The notes under the pieces were generated by a model. It did not search any database. It was not told the origin of the DNA and was given only the letters and a program-made list of their open reading frames with translations. From the IMG/VR virus record IMGVR_UViG_3300031673_000454, positions 1 to 24,736 of that record: a stretch of DNA of 24,736 nucleotides; one strand, written 5' to 3'. Below are positions 4,997 through 24,736 of the stretch, piece by piece; position 1 is the first letter of the stretch, and the number at the start of each line of letters is the position of its first letter. A program made the position numbers and the translations under genes. This DNA comes from a virus.

Positions 4997-7230
4997 GGCG
5001 TCACCGGGTCCCGAAGATCGTAGGCGTCTTCCTCGAACAGCTCGGTCGCGATGTACCGGCCCCAGTCATCCGTCTTCGCGATCGCCACAACGGTCTGCGT
5101 CCCCGCGGCCAGGACCTCGACCTTCTCCCCCGGCCCCGCCCGCTCCCATGCCTGCCCTGCGATCTCGGGGTAGTGCGCGATCCCCTCTAACGCCCCGCGC
5201 ACCACCATCCCGAGGTCCCAGTGTACCACGTAGGGGATGCACTGCGCGGGCTCCAGCTGCTTCGCTTTGAGAATGGCCTGCAGCTTTCCCTTCGTCGTCG
5301 CGTCCTCTGAGGTGTGCGTCTGCCGCAGGTAGAACGCGTAGGGCGTCGTGGTGTTGCCGTCGCCGTCGTCGAACGGGCCAGGGGAGTCCGCCACCGCGTC
5401 CTCCACAACCGCTTCGAACCCCTCCTGCTCGTTCAGCCACACCGCGATCTCCGCAAGGGCCAGCTCGTCCGTGTTTGAGTCGAAGTGCGGAATGCCAGTC
5501 TCCTGCCCATCCTGCAGCACGTTCGGCGTCGTCCGCTGGAAGCACCGCCCACCACTCACGCGCCCCACGAGGCAGAGCACGTCGTCGCGCGTGATCGCCC
5601 AGGGCACCCGTACCCCGATGGCCGGAGAGTCGTCGTCCGCCCGCTCATCGCCGGTCGTCGGGTTGTACCGCTGCAGCTCCATCGAGTCGAACACGATGCC
5701 GTCCCCGGCCACCACGCCCGTGAAGCGAACGGTCTTCACGTGGAGCAGGCACGGCTCGACGCGCTCAAGCGGGTTCATCAGGTCCACGCGGTAATCTGTC
5801 GGCAGGCCGTTGTCGGCCTCCAGGGCGAGCACGTCCCAAGTCCACGTCTCCTCCGTCGTCGAGAGGTCCGCGGCGTAGACCGTGTTCACGATCTCCAGCC
5901 TGAATGCGCGATCCCCGGCGGCCGTCCAGGAGAGGACGGCGGGCAACTTCAGGAACCCGTAGTTAGACCAGTTGCAGATGTCGTGGAGGGCGTCCTGCCT
6001 GCGCTGCTTGTGGAAGCCCGCCATCCCCTCCGCGATGAGGATGTCAGGATAATCGTCAACGAGGGTGCGCTCAGCCCCGCCTGACCCGCCCGGCGCCACC
6101 GCGATCGTTGTCAGGTCCGCGCCGTTCGTGCAGGAGACGCCGACGCTCCCGCCGGTGGCGGCCCAGTTGCTCTTTCGCGAGCCGCTTCCATCCGGGAACT
6201 CGACCTCGATGCTCGGCTTGTGGCTCCACGCGATCACGTCGAGCGGGATGAGCTGCGTCCTGTTCGACCAGTTCCTGAGGGGATGCTCGACGACGCCGAA
6301 CAGGTCCGCGTTGGCCTCGCTGTTGCCCGCCGCCCAGGGGCCGTAGAAGCGGAGGAACAGCTGCGGGTTCGTGTAGAAGGGCGCGTAGGTGTTGGCCGGG
6401 TAGGTGGCCCAACTCGTCTTCCAGATCTGGGTGTGGTAGCCGTCGAGGTCCTCCACGACGCGGTACGCGCCCCCTGTGGGCGCGAGCATGGACACGGCGT
6501 CCACCACCTGCGCCTTGCGGTGGTCAGTGTTCCACTTCCGGACCAGGATCGGGCCAGCATAGCCGATCTCATACGGCCCCCAGATGTCGTCAGCGCCGTT
6601 CACGGTATGGAGACGCGCTCCGTCGGGAACCGCCACACCATTGAGTTCCAGATCGGTGAAGGCGACAGTTGATCCTCCGCCTGCAAGCCCCGAGGCCGTC
6701 AGCGTCGCGTGAGGCCCCGCCCAGGCGTTGGCGAACGCGGTCGCGACAGTCCCAGCCGCCCGGCTGTGTGAGTAGCCGCCGAACACCATGTCCGCGGTCG
6801 TGTCCGCGTCGCTGCCCCAGTTCTCCTTCAGGCTGAGTTCGTCAGGGTGTGCTACACCCGCGAGGGGGTAACGCAGGGCCTCCCCGCCGACCGCCATGTA
6901 GAGGTCCTGCTCGTCGAACGTGAGGGTGAAGGGGACTTCGAGGTCAACCGCAGTACCGATAGACGCGTTCGCGAGGAAACTCCAGGGAACCGTGCCCAGC
7001 TCGCCGCCGAATCCGAGGACGTACCACGCCTGACGATGAACCGGGGGAGGCAATGCCTCCTGCGTGAGGTAGACCTGACAACTCCAAAGAGCGGGACCGC
7101 ACTGGAAGAGCACGGTCCCGCTCGGCGATTCTCCTGCCCCGACCTCGAAGTGAAGCTTGACCTTACCCGTCAGTGTGAACGTCGGGGCGACGACTGCCGT
7201 CTTCAGCCACGGTCCCCAGGCGACTGGCAT
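4993..7230 (-). CDS. Large distal tail protein of unknown family
   Basis: The protein is 745 residues, starting at ATG 7230 with GAGG 9 bases upstream. The start lies inside the end of the preceding secreted-protein gene (68-bp overlap). The N-terminal 150 residues are beta-rich and could be a lectin-like fold: 'LTGKVKLHFEVGAG', then 'VDLEVPFTLTFDEQDLYMAVGG'. The middle is rich in Trp and Tyr (about 230-350). The C-terminal third contains mixed alpha/beta segments. No catalytic motif or membrane span is seen. Its place directly after the tape measure region and before the hub-like protein fits a distal tail or tail-tip protein that joins the tube to the hub. I cannot match it to a named family. 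Confidence 0.75.
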   Translation of the reverse strand: MPVAWGPWLKTAVVAPTFTLTGKVKLHFEVGAGESPSGTVLFQCGPALWSCQVYLTQEALPPPVHRQAWYVLGFGGELGTVPWSFLANASIGTAVDLEVPFTLTFDEQDLYMAVGGEALRYPLAGVAHPDELSLKENWGSDADTTADMVFGGYSHSRAAGTVATAFANAWAGPHATLTASGLAGGGSTVAFTDLELNGVAVPDGARLHTVNGADDIWGPYEIGYAGPILVRKWNTDHRKAQVVDAVSMLAPTGGAYRVVEDLDGYHTQIWKTSWATYPANTYAPFYTNPQLFLRFYGPWAAGNSEANADLFGVVEHPLRNWSNRTQLIPLDVIAWSHKPSIEVEFPDGSGSRKSNWAATGGSVGVSCTNGADLTTIAVAPGGSGGAERTLVDDYPDILIAEGMAGFHKQRRQDALHDICNWSNYGFLKLPAVLSWTAAGDRAFRLEIVNTVYAADLSTTEETWTWDVLALEADNGLPTDYRVDLMNPLERVEPCLLHVKTVRFTGVVAGDGIVFDSMELQRYNPTTGDERADDDSPAIGVRVPWAITRDDVLCLVGRVSGGRCFQRTTPNVLQDGQETGIPHFDSNTDELALAEIAVWLNEQEGFEAVVEDAVADSPGPFDDGDGNTTTPYAFYLRQTHTSEDATTKGKLQAILKAKQLEPAQCIPYVVHWDLGMVVRGALEGIAHYPEIAGQAWERAGPGEKVEVLAAGTQTVVAIAKTDDWGRYIATELFEEDAYDLRDPVTP

Positions 7231-7573: not shown

Positions 7574-7601
7574 CACCCATGTTAACGGGATGTAAACGTG
7601 C

Positions 7602-20110: not shown

Positions 20111-20121
20111 GTTCTCAAACG

Positions 20122-20151
20122 AAAAGCGCCCTCGTGTTAAGGGCGCTTTTT
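20122..20151 (-). terminator. Bidirectional Rho-independent terminator between early and late blocks
   Basis: An 11-bp perfect stem (AAAAGCGCCCT with AGGGCGCTTTT, 20122-20132 and 20140-20150) encloses the 7-base loop CGTGTTA. Both strands have a T run: four on the minus and five on the plus. It lies 73 bases after the XRE regulator stop and 61 bases before the small terminase start, so on the minus strand it ends early transcription. Confidence 0.9.
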
Positions 20152-20223
20152 ACACTGTTACTGAAAACTCACAAAAGCGGAGGCTAAAGAGTCTCCCTCG
20201 CGCGTGAGGGTTAAGCGCGGCGA

Positions 20224-21392: not shown

Positions 21393-21919
21393 CGCGTCAC
21401 CACCCAGACTCGTCGGATGTGCGTCACGTTCCGTAGGCCATGCCCCGCGTACAGGTCAACCCATTCAGTGGCCCCAAACGACAACGCCTTTCCGCGATTA
21501 GCGCGACTGCCCGTGTCTTCGACGCGCCGCAGGGTCATGCCCGTAGGCAAGTCCACCAGGACGTAGGACCACGGCACCTGGTCGCGTCGGATCATCGAGC
21601 GAGTGCACTTGTCGAACTTCCATCTCGGGATCGGGACGCCCAGCATCGCCGCAGAGAGTCCAATCTTCGGGACAAGCCCGCTGGCCGCATGGGGTTCCTT
21701 CTTCCCGGTCATCGGGTCCCATTGTAGGGCGCACTCCTCTCGGGCGTAGTGCGTGATCCACGCGAGCTTTGCATTGGGGCTCTGTGCGAGCAGAGCCTCG
21801 TACCCATCTCGCTGCCAGTCGGACAGCGGGCCATAGTCACCGGCCAGCGCCTTCTCCGCCACCCGCAGATGCGGGGGCTGGCCTGGCGCGAGAATCATCG
21901 CGATCAGGAGGCCGATCAT
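21389..21919 (-). CDS. 3D-domain (double-psi beta-barrel) protein, possible cell-wall enzyme
   Basis: The protein is 176 residues. A short hydrophobic start (MIGLLIAMILAPG) may be a weak export signal. Residues about 53-175 resemble the 3D/RlpA-like double-psi barrel: 'ITHYAREE', then 'EPHAASGLVPKIGLSAAMLGVPIP', then 'RVEDTGSRANRG' at 132-143 and 'WVDLYAG' at 153-159. The second Asp of the D-T-G and the D-L-Y at 155-157 are the usual signature. Two cysteines (63 and 105) could form a disulfide. 3D proteins include lytic transglycosylases and resuscitation-factor-like enzymes acting on peptidoglycan; a muralytic role in lysis or entry is a reasonable inference. It is placed between the helicase and a small membrane gene, with 4-bp overlaps on both sides. 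Confidence 0.7.
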   Translation of the reverse strand: MIGLLIAMILAPGQPPHLRVAEKALAGDYGPLSDWQRDGYEALLAQSPNAKLAWITHYAREECALQWDPMTGKKEPHAASGLVPKIGLSAAMLGVPIPRWKFDKCTRSMIRRDQVPWSYVLVDLPTGMTLRRVEDTGSRANRGKALSFGATEWVDLYAGHGLRNVTHIRRVWVVTR

Positions 21920-23508
21920 ATCATCACCGCCATGTTGGTTGCCGGGGCGCAGATGCAGAGCGTCTCCCTGGCCCGGGTCATTCCGACGTAAAACTGCCGG
22001 ACGATGTCATTCCGCCCGCGATCTCCGTCTGACCACCACTGCCCGTAGCCCTGGTAACTGAGGTCCGGGCAAATGATAACGCTGTCGGCCTCGCCCCCCT
22101 TCACCGAGTGGATGGTGCCCACCGTGATCTTCGGATCCTCCTGGAGCGCGGCGAATCCATGCTGCGCCACGCAGTGCAGCGCGAACTTCACCACATTCAG
22201 CCTGCTATGCTGTACGTGGGCCTCGAACCAATCGAGGTCGCCGTCCATCGCGGCGCTGAGGTCCTCGTGGGAGTTGAACGTCTGCGCCATGCGCGTCACG
22301 ATCTGCGTGCCGGAGAGGTTGTTCGGCCAGTCGGTCAGCTTCTTCTTCTCGCCGCGACGGAGGACTTTCGTGGTGATCCCCAGCCAGTCCCGAGCTTCCT
22401 CTGTCGTCCACAGCCGCGGCGAGCCGGGTTGCAGGGGTTCAAGGAACGCGAGCAGGGCACTCACGCTGCTGCCTTCGCCGCGGCGCGAGAGTGGATTCCA
22501 GTCCCCGCGCTCGCGCCTGTACCTGTTGGCGAACGGCGTGCCCGACTCCCGGAGCGCGGCGACTACATCGCGCAGCATGTAGGCGCAGCTCGCCAGGATC
22601 ATCACCGTGCCCCGCTCAGCCAGTTCCCGCGCCAGGTCCGCCACCTCGTTCGCTCGCCGGAACGTGATCCCCGGGCGCTCCACGCTGCCCTCAGCGTCGC
22701 GCGCCTGGTACGTCACGTCGTCCCGATTGGATATCTGCCCGATCCACGGGAGCGCGACCTCGACCACCGCCCTGGGCACGCGGTAGCTCTGTTCCAGCAC
22801 GATCTTCCTCTCGGGCGCATTCTCGATGAACCAATCGGGGTCAGCGCCCGCCCAGGTGAAGATCGCCTGGTCGGGGTCGCCAGCGGTGATGAGCCGCTCG
22901 CAGGGCTCGGCCCACTTCTGCACAAGTGCCCATTGCAGGCGGCTCGTGTCCTGGGCCTCGTCCACGGCCATGACCATCGGGCACTGAGGCGCTTCGTCCA
23001 CGTCGCGCAGGGCGTGCTCAATGAGATCCGTGAAGTCGAGCGCCCCGGCGTCCTGCTTGAACGACTCCCACACCTCCGCGAATGCCAGCACCTCCATGTT
23101 CGGCCACTGGTCGCGGGGTAGCATCATGTTCCGCAGCCTGCCATACTCAGCCAGCATGGCCTCGCCCCGGTCCTGCACGGCCACGCCCGACTCCAGGTCC
23201 TCCACAGGACGGCAGGCGCCGAACTGGAACGCTGCGTGCTCTTGGTTAAACGCGAGGAGGGCTTTCCGATCCCCCTCGATGATTGCCGGATGCTGAAGAG
23301 CCGAGAAGGCAAAGCTGTGAAGAGTGCCGACGTTCCCGCTCGGGAGCGTGGTGTCCCGTCCGGCAAGCTCCGCGGCGGCCGCTCTGGTGTGAGAGATGGC
23401 GACGACGAGGTCGGGGCCCACCAGCTCGGCGTTGTGTTTGAGGGCTCGGGCGAGGGCGGTGGTCTTGCCTGTCCCTGGCGGTCCGATGATCCTATCCTCT
23501 GCTGCCAC
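21916..23508 (-). CDS. SF1 (UvrD/PcrA-like) DNA helicase
   Basis: This 530-residue helicase has all the SF1 motifs in order. Motif I: GPPGTGKTT at 9-17. Motif Ia: S-H-T-R-A-A-A-A-E-L at 39-48. The 'GTLHSFAF' segment is at 61-68. Motif II: DEAQD at 183-187. Motif III: GDPDQAIFTWAGAD at 210-223. Motif IV: QSYRVP at 240-245. Motif V: TIHSVKGGEAD at 465-475. Motif VI: QFYVGMTRARETL at 505-517. It is shorter than UvrD (about 720), lacking large accessory domains. It starts at GTG 23508, with GGAG 8 bases upstream, just left of the repeat-rich intergenic region, and the protein begins almost directly with the Walker A loop. It overlaps the 3D gene by 4 bases. It probably unwinds DNA during replication or repair of the phage genome. 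Confidence 0.95.
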   Translation of the reverse strand: MAAEDRIIGPPGTGKTTALARALKHNAELVGPDLVVAISHTRAAAAELAGRDTTLPSGNVGTLHSFAFSALQHPAIIEGDRKALLAFNQEHAAFQFGACRPVEDLESGVAVQDRGEAMLAEYGRLRNMMLPRDQWPNMEVLAFAEVWESFKQDAGALDFTDLIEHALRDVDEAPQCPMVMAVDEAQDTSRLQWALVQKWAEPCERLITAGDPDQAIFTWAGADPDWFIENAPERKIVLEQSYRVPRAVVEVALPWIGQISNRDDVTYQARDAEGSVERPGITFRRANEVADLARELAERGTVMILASCAYMLRDVVAALRESGTPFANRYRRERGDWNPLSRRGEGSSVSALLAFLEPLQPGSPRLWTTEEARDWLGITTKVLRRGEKKKLTDWPNNLSGTQIVTRMAQTFNSHEDLSAAMDGDLDWFEAHVQHSRLNVVKFALHCVAQHGFAALQEDPKITVGTIHSVKGGEADSVIICPDLSYQGYGQWWSDGDRGRNDIVRQFYVGMTRARETLCICAPATNMAVMI

Positions 23509-23520
23509 GGTGGCGTCTCC

Positions 23521-23675
23521 GTTTACAGGGTTTACAGTTGCTTTACACTTGGCGACGTGCCACTAATCCTACTCCTGATTGAGCGTTTACACTTTTACGC
23601 TTTTACACGCAAGTTTCGATGCTCGAAAACTTTCCTCGCGCGCGCGGGCGCATAGGGGGAACGCAAAGTGTAAAC
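23521..23675. repeat. TTTACAC repeat cluster (iteron- or operator-like)
   Basis: Six direct copies of an 8-mer of the form (G/C/T)TTTACAC or a one-base variant lie at 23521-23528, 23530-23537, 23541-23548, 23585-23592, 23593-23600 and 23601-23608 on the plus strand, and one inverted copy is at 23668-23675. The last inverted copy belongs to a 12-bp perfect inverted repeat: CGTTTACACTTT at 23584-23595 with AAAGTGTAAACG at 23665-23676. A lone ninth-base-match copy occurs at 20148-20155 by the terminator. The cluster occupies the only sizeable gap of the replication block. Confidence 0.75.
23611..23632. promoter_or_regulatory. Palindromic operator-like site
   Basis: The arms AAGTTTCGA (23611-23619) and TCGAAAACTT (23623-23632) are inverted repeats around TGC, with one extra A in the right arm; the inner 6 bp (TTTCGA/TCGAAA) are perfect. 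It lies between the TTTACAC repeats and an alternating CG run (23637-23646). A dimeric regulator, perhaps the XRE protein encoded 3 kb away, could bind it, but that is inference. Confidence 0.5.
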
Positions 23676-23676
23676 G

Positions 23677-24736
23677 TCATTCCAGCGGAAGCTCGGATGT
23701 CTCCGATGGCCCTGCTCGATGGGGCACTCCCCAGAACCGTTTTGTCGCCACTCCCTTCTTTCCAGCACGCACCCCGTGGACTGCCGTGTCTGCTCCTATG
23801 GCGCGCAGCCGCCGTAGTAGGTCCTTCCGCTCCCAACGCAGGTCATTGCCCCGCATCCAACTTCGCAATGCGTCGAGCCGGAACCACAGGCGTCCGTCCC
23901 GGATGAACGGATGGTCGGCACTCTCCACGATCTGACCTGGGGGAATGGTCTGAAGTCGCATGTCCTCTGTGAAGCTGGCGATCAGCCCGTTGATCTCACC
24001 GTCGAGCGTAGCCTCCGGGTCGCCGACGATCTCCTCGGCCGCCGCGGCGATGGCGTTGGCGAGGTCCCGCCAGGTCGTGCCGCCCTTCTTCGAGGTTGCC
24101 GGGATGGGCCGAGGCGCGCGCTTGGTGAGGTCGAACATCCTGCCGGCAACGTAGCCCTGCTGGAGCATCTTCTCTGCGGGGACCTCCACGCAGCGGCTGT
24201 CAACCCAGAGCCTGTAGACTCCAGGTGGCCCCGTGATGAGTTGGACGTTCGCCAGGGGCACGTCGAGCTTGTCGGCAATGGCGGCGATCTTCGCGTCGCG
24301 CCCGGCGGTAGGGTCTGTGATCGCCGCCTGCTTCTGGTGCTGCTCGCGGGCCGTCTTGATTGTTCGCTGGTAGTAGTCTGGCCTGTCCTTCGGGAGCTTC
24401 TCTTTGTTGCCGAACCGCTCGCGGTGGTGGGCAAGGGTCGCCGTGATCTCCCGGTCATTCCATCCGGCCACGACGAGCTGATCGGCGAGGCTCATGTCCC
24501 ACTGGCTCAGGCTCTTTCCCGCCAGGTCCTTCCGCCGATGGTGGATGGTATCGGCGAAGTCCTCGCTGATCTGCTCCAGGGCGTTGTACTTCTCCCAGGG
24601 CACGCCTGGCGCCCGCTCTTGGGGCACGTCCCTCTCAGCTTCCTGCGTGGCGCGCGTAGCAGGCCCAGGAGAGGCGTTGGGCTTCGGGGGCGTCGTTACC
24701 CCCATCTGCGCAGCCAACAAGCCCTGGGCGGCCACA
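23677..24736 (-). CDS. Primase-like protein, C-terminal part (5' end outside window)
   Basis: The open frame crosses the right edge, so 352 or more residues are seen and the N-terminus is missing. Residues 1-45 form a Pro/Ala/Gln-rich linker. Residues about 77-130 resemble the PriCT segment of archaeo-eukaryotic-type (prim-pol) primases: 'WDMSLADQLVVAGWNDREITATL', 'HHRERFG', then 'RPDYYQRTIKTAR'. The remainder has a helical and mixed part, with 'YRLWVDSRCVEVPAEKM' near residue 170 and 'FIRDGRLWFRLDALRSWMRGNDL' near residue 290, like winged-helix or DNA-binding modules. The catalytic prim-pol domain would be upstream of the window. The stop is 1 base from the TTTACAC repeat region, which lies between this gene and the helicase. 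The primase call is moderately supported. Confidence 0.65.
   Translation of the reverse strand, partial: VAAQGLLAAQMGVTTPPKPNASPGPATRATQEAERDVPQERAPGVPWEKYNALEQISEDFADTIHHRRKDLAGKSLSQWDMSLADQLVVAGWNDREITATLAHHRERFGNKEKLPKDRPDYYQRTIKTAREQHQKQAAITDPTAGRDAKIAAIADKLDVPLANVQLITGPPGVYRLWVDSRCVEVPAEKMLQQGYVAGRMFDLTKRAPRPIPATSKKGGTTWRDLANAIAAAAEEIVGDPEATLDGEINGLIASFTEDMRLQTIPPGQIVESADHPFIRDGRLWFRLDALRSWMRGNDLRWERKDLLRRLRAIGADTAVHGVRAGKKGVATKRFWGVPHRAGPSETSELPLE

Follow-up and report, generated by a model that had tools for sequence, protein, structure and literature searches.

The stretch of DNA analysed here (the window) is one entire IMG/VR virus record of 24,736 bp, possibly a fragment of its genome. 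The genes discussed below are located on the minus strand, and terminase, portal and capsid lie at low coordinates. Moving upward, the minus-strand order is a TerS-like gene, XRE, a VRR-NUC-like nuclease, a hypothetical protein, a UvrD-like SF1 helicase and a primase. The last two enclose the region of interest:

21916-23508, minus strand: UvrD-like SF1 helicase, the conserved partner gene downstream of the gap (profile matches)
23509-23676, no strand assigned: intergenic repeat array and candidate replication origin, 168 bp with 51% GC in the primase-helicase gap
23677-24735, minus strand: C-terminal 352 amino acids of the primase, cut by the record end (weak RepB_primase_C match)
23677-24315, minus strand: conserved C-terminal domain (CTD) of the primase with a C-terminal winged helix, the proposed reader of the array (profile, predicted structure)

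The identities that a first-pass annotation gave to the two flanking genes hold. The downstream gene encodes a UvrD-like SF1 helicase, while the upstream fragment combines the weak RepB_primase_C match with homology to the C-terminal parts of complete primases in relatives, its N-terminal part falling outside the record. Reading frames within the gap are short and interrupted, and a coding explanation was rejected on this ground. No match to the window array was found in phages by blastn or as an exact DNA match in IMG/VR, and these collections contain no close relative at the DNA level. A peptide-pattern search likewise returned nothing close to the primase fragment or to the terminase. A scan of genome contigs yielded weak, distant helicases only, and an Rfam search gave no match.

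The gap contains the following elements:

23522-23527, plus strand: repeat 1, TTTACA (motif scan)
23531-23536, plus strand: repeat 2, TTTACA (motif scan)
23542-23547, plus strand: repeat 3, TTTACA(C) (motif scan)
23586-23591, plus strand: repeat 4, TTTACA(C), inside the left arm of a 12-bp inverted pair
23594-23599, plus strand: repeat 5, TTTACG, 8 bp after repeat 4
23602-23607, plus strand: repeat 6, TTTACA(C), 8 bp after repeat 5
23611-23632, no strand assigned: imperfect palindrome AAGTTTCGATGCTCGAAAACTT, 22 bp with one unpaired base, a possible hairpin
23637-23646, no strand assigned: (CG)5 tract of 10 bp, then GGGCGCATAGGGGG
23669-23674, minus strand: repeat 7, TTTACA(C), inverted, inside the right arm of the 12-bp inverted pair

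Six TTTACA and one TTTACG are present between positions 23509 and 23676, with five TTTACA and the TTTACG on the plus strand and one TTTACA inverted. Adjacent sites are spaced 8-11 bp apart, and expectation maximization gives AGTGTAAAcG as the motif of the array. Elsewhere in the record (24.5 kb) TTTACA occurs twice, at 7591 (minus strand) and 20149 (plus strand). The latter is the sole plus-strand TTTACAC outside the array and comes directly after the T-run of a terminator-like hairpin (20120-20156) that separates the XRE and TerS genes. When the whole record was shuffled, TTTACA occurred a mean of 1.04 times and at most 4 times; in 2000 shuffles of the 168-bp gap it occurred at most 3 times. 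The gap's best repeat score was 8.2, a value that no other window of the record (606 scored) attained, nor did any of 300 dinucleotide-shuffled versions of the gap. An initial repeat score, based on 8-mers with one mismatch, was discarded as driven by base composition. As in an iteron origin, one short word is clustered in a non-coding stretch beyond chance. The cluster of seven sites reported by the first-pass annotation, six direct and one inverted, is therefore real and exceeds shuffle expectation; the wording "TTTACAC-type octamer" was overstated, because exact TTTACAC is found at just four of the seven sites.

The structural elements described earlier were likewise recovered. The perfect 12-bp inverted repeat (23584-23595/23665-23676, arms 69 nt apart) was confirmed, yet it is no independent element, because its arms are repeats 4 and 7. 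The resulting 93-nt span folds as DNA with a z of -2.2, and as RNA with a z of only -0.8. Both the near-perfect palindrome and the alternating CG tract are present, and the record has just one other (CG)4+ run besides this tract. The gap is also AT-richer than the genome around it (51% versus 66% GC), reaching 60% AT over 40 bp, which is above the genome but short of a typical AT-rich DUE.

Relatives were sought with the helicase as query, which led to loci at 30-40% identity and identified phages with UvrD-like helicases of ~30-47% similarity. Arrays are located in the same primase-helicase gap of these phages but are built from different motifs: GTTATGACA in loci L168 and L169, GGTAGTCA in Thermus phage Riverbug, GTCTCTCA in L011, TGTCACA in Meiothermus phages MMP7 and MMP17, and CTACTACA, AGTCAGAG and others elsewhere. 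A second scan with the L168 and L169 helicases provided ~30 further distinct loci that were used to test the pattern. An array was scored where no more than 0.4% of a locus's other windows reached the repeat score of its gap; by this measure 14 of the 26 distinct loci whose gap is 100 bp or longer contained one. Among the 20 loci fetched after the pattern was first noticed, nine had an array (L240, L241, L247, L251, L254, L255, L257, L259 and L261). A dinucleotide-shuffle test was significant for 17/27 gaps at p<=0.0066. The arrays comprise 6-16 sites and span up to ~500 bp. Their words are largely confined to the gap: all nine copies of AGTCAGAG in the 48.6-kb L261 record, 7/8 copies of TTATGACA in L230 (24.8 kb), 6/7 copies of GACAATTA in L240 (30 kb) and 5/5 copies of TGTCACA in the 33-kb MMP17 genome (array at ~30.9-31.1 kb) lie inside it, as do just 5/12 copies of the shorter word GACTACA in L251 (91 kb).

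Approximately half of the clade members have no gap or no detectable array. The CTD-bearing loci L003, L231, L233, L234 and L262 lack a gap, and the gaps of L238 and L239, for example, contain no detectable array. The window motif was not found in the gap of L237, the relative with the nearest helicase (p=0.37), which is rich in TAAAC/GCAAAC words. Conservation of the repeats in relatives takes a particular form: the octamer is not kept, while much of the clade keeps an array in this position with its site size and spacing. Within the wider helicase family, where the 300 bp upstream of the helicase were examined at 66 loci, an array was detected at one, compared with 14/34 in this clade (Fisher p=3.7e-7); most members of the wider family have no gap upstream of the helicase (median 14 bp).

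Further elements recur in these gaps. CG runs together with A/T and G-run elements resembling those of the window are found in several relatives, including L228. Alternating CG runs of at least 8 bp are ~six times denser in gaps than in the rest of the same loci, with 11 in 9.5 kb of gap distributed over 7/27 loci (Poisson p ~3e-6, counting paired runs as independent). In the gaps of L246, L249 and L254 an inverted pair of CTCCCGTGCGCGCGCG-type runs flanks the array (L249: 2048-2056 and 2282-2290), and these facing CG runs occur even though L249 and L254 have different repeat words.

Several observations concern the annotation of these loci. A 75-aa coding sequence is annotated across the repeat array of both MMP17 (QAY18090, L004 2049-2273) and MMP7 (AZF88251, L309 3780-4004, labelled "SDR family oxidoreductase"); both are probably spurious gene calls. 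The Riverbug "primase" XKB90096 (L005 5283-5993) is a stand-alone CTD whose C-terminal tail translates the repeat array, and its start is apparently annotated too late. The helicase match extends over ~2.5 kb in L251, L252, L256 and L261 versus ~1.65 kb elsewhere, and the ~800-850 extra nucleotides suggest an in-frame insertion, an intein or similar. Finally, L243 contains a strong word repeat unrelated to the arrays (CGCGGCC, 32 copies in 300 bp, near position 7201).

The proteins encoded upstream of the gap in relatives have in common their last ~190-200 amino acids, the CTD, and differ in their N-terminal parts. The N-terminal part of the L003 primase matches Pfam Prim-Pol and PriCT_1; the primases of L168, L169, L008 and L011 match phrog_2478, that of L169 with an additional weak RepB_primase match; and that of L010 matches phrog_13901. 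In MMP17 the CTD is encoded as a separate stand-alone gene. In nearly all loci of the clade, a CTD profile matches the open reading frame that immediately precedes the helicase gene. AlphaFold2 models of the window CTD reached a mean pLDDT of 82 with seven sequences and 91.7 with 30, and the last ~75 residues were modelled in the order strand-helix-helix-strand-strand, as in a winged helix. The top structural matches (VIA-align) were SCCmec Cch residues 439-553 (Z 6.8), the oriT-binding protein TcpK (Z 6.5) and SaPIBov1 Rep residues 449-567 (Z 6.0), Z values of 6-7 being middling. The origin-binding domain of P4 alpha was absent from the structural match lists, which excludes nothing. Comparison of the CTD with the PDB by sequence returned only HLA and calmodulin, which were rejected as implausible. 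The structural matches of the modelled CTD agree with a DNA-binding winged helix of the kind found in replication and transfer initiators, a fold that by itself shows no function.

The CTD also occurs in the wider helicase family, which has no arrays at the primase-helicase position. An array was predicted for the Nanhaivirus phages R5C, R26L and Pan1, which encode CTD-like primases, and this prediction failed, as these phages have neither gap nor array. Because CTD-like primases occur in the wider family without a local array, the domain would either have another role there or recognize sites located elsewhere.

Whether the array follows the CTD or the helicase can be read only from pairs of loci with matched helicase identity, of which there are few. 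L246 and L254 are similar throughout (helicase 82%, N-terminal part of the primase 81%, CTD 78% identity), and the L254 motif finds sites in the L246 gap (p=0.003), where the exact-repeat test had not detected an array. L249 and L254 are 70% identical in the helicase and 55% in the N-terminal part of the primase, with identity dropping near the CTD border to 34% across the CTD; here the arrays are unrelated (L254 motif in the L249 gap, p=1.0; reverse, p=0.90). Similarly, MMP17 and L259 share 73% identity in the helicase and 35% in the CTD, and their motifs do not cross-match (p=0.49 and 0.35). Among L245, L255 and L257, whose CTDs are 48-70% identical, three of the five directions tested matched at p=0.003. 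An exception to any strict rule is the pair L228 and L230, which have GTTATGACA in common although their CTDs are just ~25-30% identical. Footprinting of pairs (MMP7/MMP17, L249/L250 and others) was uninformative, the sequences being too alike to discriminate. A Mantel test of motif against identity over 17 loci was not significant for the CTD (p=0.34), the winged helix (p=0.086) or the helicase (p=0.57), because most identities lie near 20-25%. Since the pair with 78% CTD identity shares its motif and the pairs with ~70% helicase but ~34% CTD identity do not, these few informative comparisons favour an array that goes with the primase CTD rather than with the helicase. The array adjoins the gene of a primase whose CTD covaries with it in these pairs, and this primase may act as the initiator.

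Taken together, these results make it probable that this phage has an iteron-type replication origin in the 168-bp gap, with the C-terminal winged helix of the primase as its reader. In this model the winged helix would bind repeats of ~8-10 bp (AGTGTAAAC-type; one site per 8-11 bp where adjacent) and would therefore concentrate the primase at the origin. The AT-richer stretch would then melt to expose single-stranded DNA, and the hairpin and the CG/G-run elements might serve as accessory structures. The primase domain would prime the exposed strand, and the UvrD-like helicase encoded by the next gene would unwind onward; this order of events is conjectural. The first-pass annotation had proposed an origin or a replication-linked array, a proposal that is partly supported as a whole: arrays at the same locus in relatives make an origin the best reading, while GC skew gave no support for an origin at the array, the detrended skew of MMP17 had no extremum there, and no DnaA box was found.

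The array might instead be an operator, bound by the primase CTD or by another regulator such as the XRE protein, that controls transcription of the helicase and downstream genes without any origin. Its place directly upstream of the helicase start would suit this role, winged helices are frequent in regulators, and one weak promoter-like match overlaps the repeats, albeit on the plus strand, pointing away from the helicase. However, a promoter match in the helicase direction is absent. Furthermore, the sites are restricted to one gap in whole records rather than distributed over several promoters, and 6-16 sites over up to ~500 bp is long for a single operator. The XRE protein, earlier put forward as the binder, is a poor candidate: it was found in 1/33 relative loci, and weakly, whereas the primase CTD is conserved, and its own gene has no site save one TTTACAC. 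We consider an operator unlikely.

Still less likely is a reading in which the primase, acting on single-stranded DNA, preferentially starts synthesis at the repeats, whether or not these also serve as double-stranded binding sites. The neighbouring gene does encode a primase, the SCC enzyme CCPol-MP prefers priming at iteron sequence (PMC7581432), and the hairpin and inverted pair (DNA z -2.2) could expose single strands. Against this, the motif follows the CTD in L249/L254 although the N-terminal part of the primase is more similar (55% versus 34%), which argues that the reader is the CTD and not the catalytic domain. That the 12-bp inverted pair around 69 nt is itself the functional structure, as in an origin of pRN1/BIP-1 type, and the repeats incidental is very improbable: the pRN1 origin is indeed a 100-nt stem-loop downstream of the prim-pol gene (PMC4234260) and the 93-nt span can fold as DNA, but the RNA fold is weak, the arms coincide with repeats 4 and 7, which is what an array with copies in both orientations would produce, and the feature common to the gaps of relatives is the repeat array, no common large stem having been seen.

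An iteron origin read by the primase thus remains the preferred interpretation, and the 168-bp cluster is probably the start point of phage genome copying. Across relatives the repeat words appear to change together with one primase domain. A more tentative extension is that the CTD and the adjacent array form an exchangeable "origin identity" cassette, in which reader domain and word are replaced together against a constant background of catalytic primase and helicase, so that every phage would have an origin of its own. If so, related phages in the same cell could not use each other's origin. It is seldom possible to locate the origin of an uncultivated phage from sequence; here one domain profile, that of the primase CTD, next to a UvrD-like helicase gene indicates a candidate origin in a group of phages. 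Moreover, the ~15 natural reader-repeat pairs offer a ready set in which to study how winged helices acquire new DNA specificities.

No published description of a primase-borne reader with a separate SF1 helicase was found in a search that left most subscription journals outside, and individual parts of the arrangement have counterparts in known systems. The iterons bound by SaPI Rep and by Cch2 are located downstream of the genes that encode these proteins (PMC7581432). As proposed for the window locus, the SaPI iterons lie directly downstream of the initiator gene and are read by a C-terminal DNA-binding domain (PMC7581432), and the corresponding domain of SaPIBov1 Rep ranks among the top structural matches of the CTD (Z 6.0). 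The SCCmec Cch/Cch2 system with CCPol-MP is also similar, in that a C-terminal domain reads iterons (AAGTG) downstream of the gene and a primase is a partner; the Cch domain is the best structural match (Z 6.8). In the window, too, the protein directly upstream of the repeats carries a C-terminal winged-helix domain (predicted fold, Z 6.0-6.8), but this protein is a primase and not an initiator helicase. The SaPI reader is fused to the initiator helicase, whereas here the proposed reader is on a primase or stand-alone and the UvrD-like SF1 helicase is separate. In SCCmec, the reader is likewise on the helicase, and the primase belongs to another family.

RSF1010 offers a different set of likenesses in its RepA/RepB'/RepC oriV, with a RepB'-like primase domain (compare the weak RepB_primase_C and RepB_primase matches), a separate helicase, and iterons with hairpins. 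Unlike the window, its iterons are read by a separate protein, RepC, and its helicase is RepA; models of RepC and RepA had no match among ten and six proteins searched from the incomplete window. Phage P4 has an unlinked crr element in addition to its origin. P4 alpha binds the origin repeats via a C-terminal winged helix (PMC4234260), and it resembles the window in being a primase protein with such a domain and repeats at the origin, here a putative one (PMC4234260). It differs in joining a Toprim primase, a helicase domain and the winged helix in one polypeptide; the complete primases of relatives are AEP-type, not Toprim, and the SF1 helicase is separate. The origin of pRN1 is a stem-loop just 3' of the prim-pol gene (PMC4234260), and ORF904 is, as here, an AEP primase with a C-terminal winged helix and with the origin, here a candidate, directly 3' of its gene (PMC4234260). 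However, the pRN1 stem-loop has no iterons and the helicase there is a fused SF3 enzyme, while repeats are found in the window and many relatives and a stem is possible in the window. For a fusion between an AEP primase and a phage O-like origin-binding domain, a role in bringing the primase to the origin has been proposed (PMC5862659). By analogy, the window arrangement fits this primase-recruitment logic, with the putative reader on the primase and a separate SF1 helicase. These comparisons suggest an organization in which the primase itself recognizes the origin and works with a non-ring SF1 helicase, unlike those of SaPI, SCC, P4 and pRN1.
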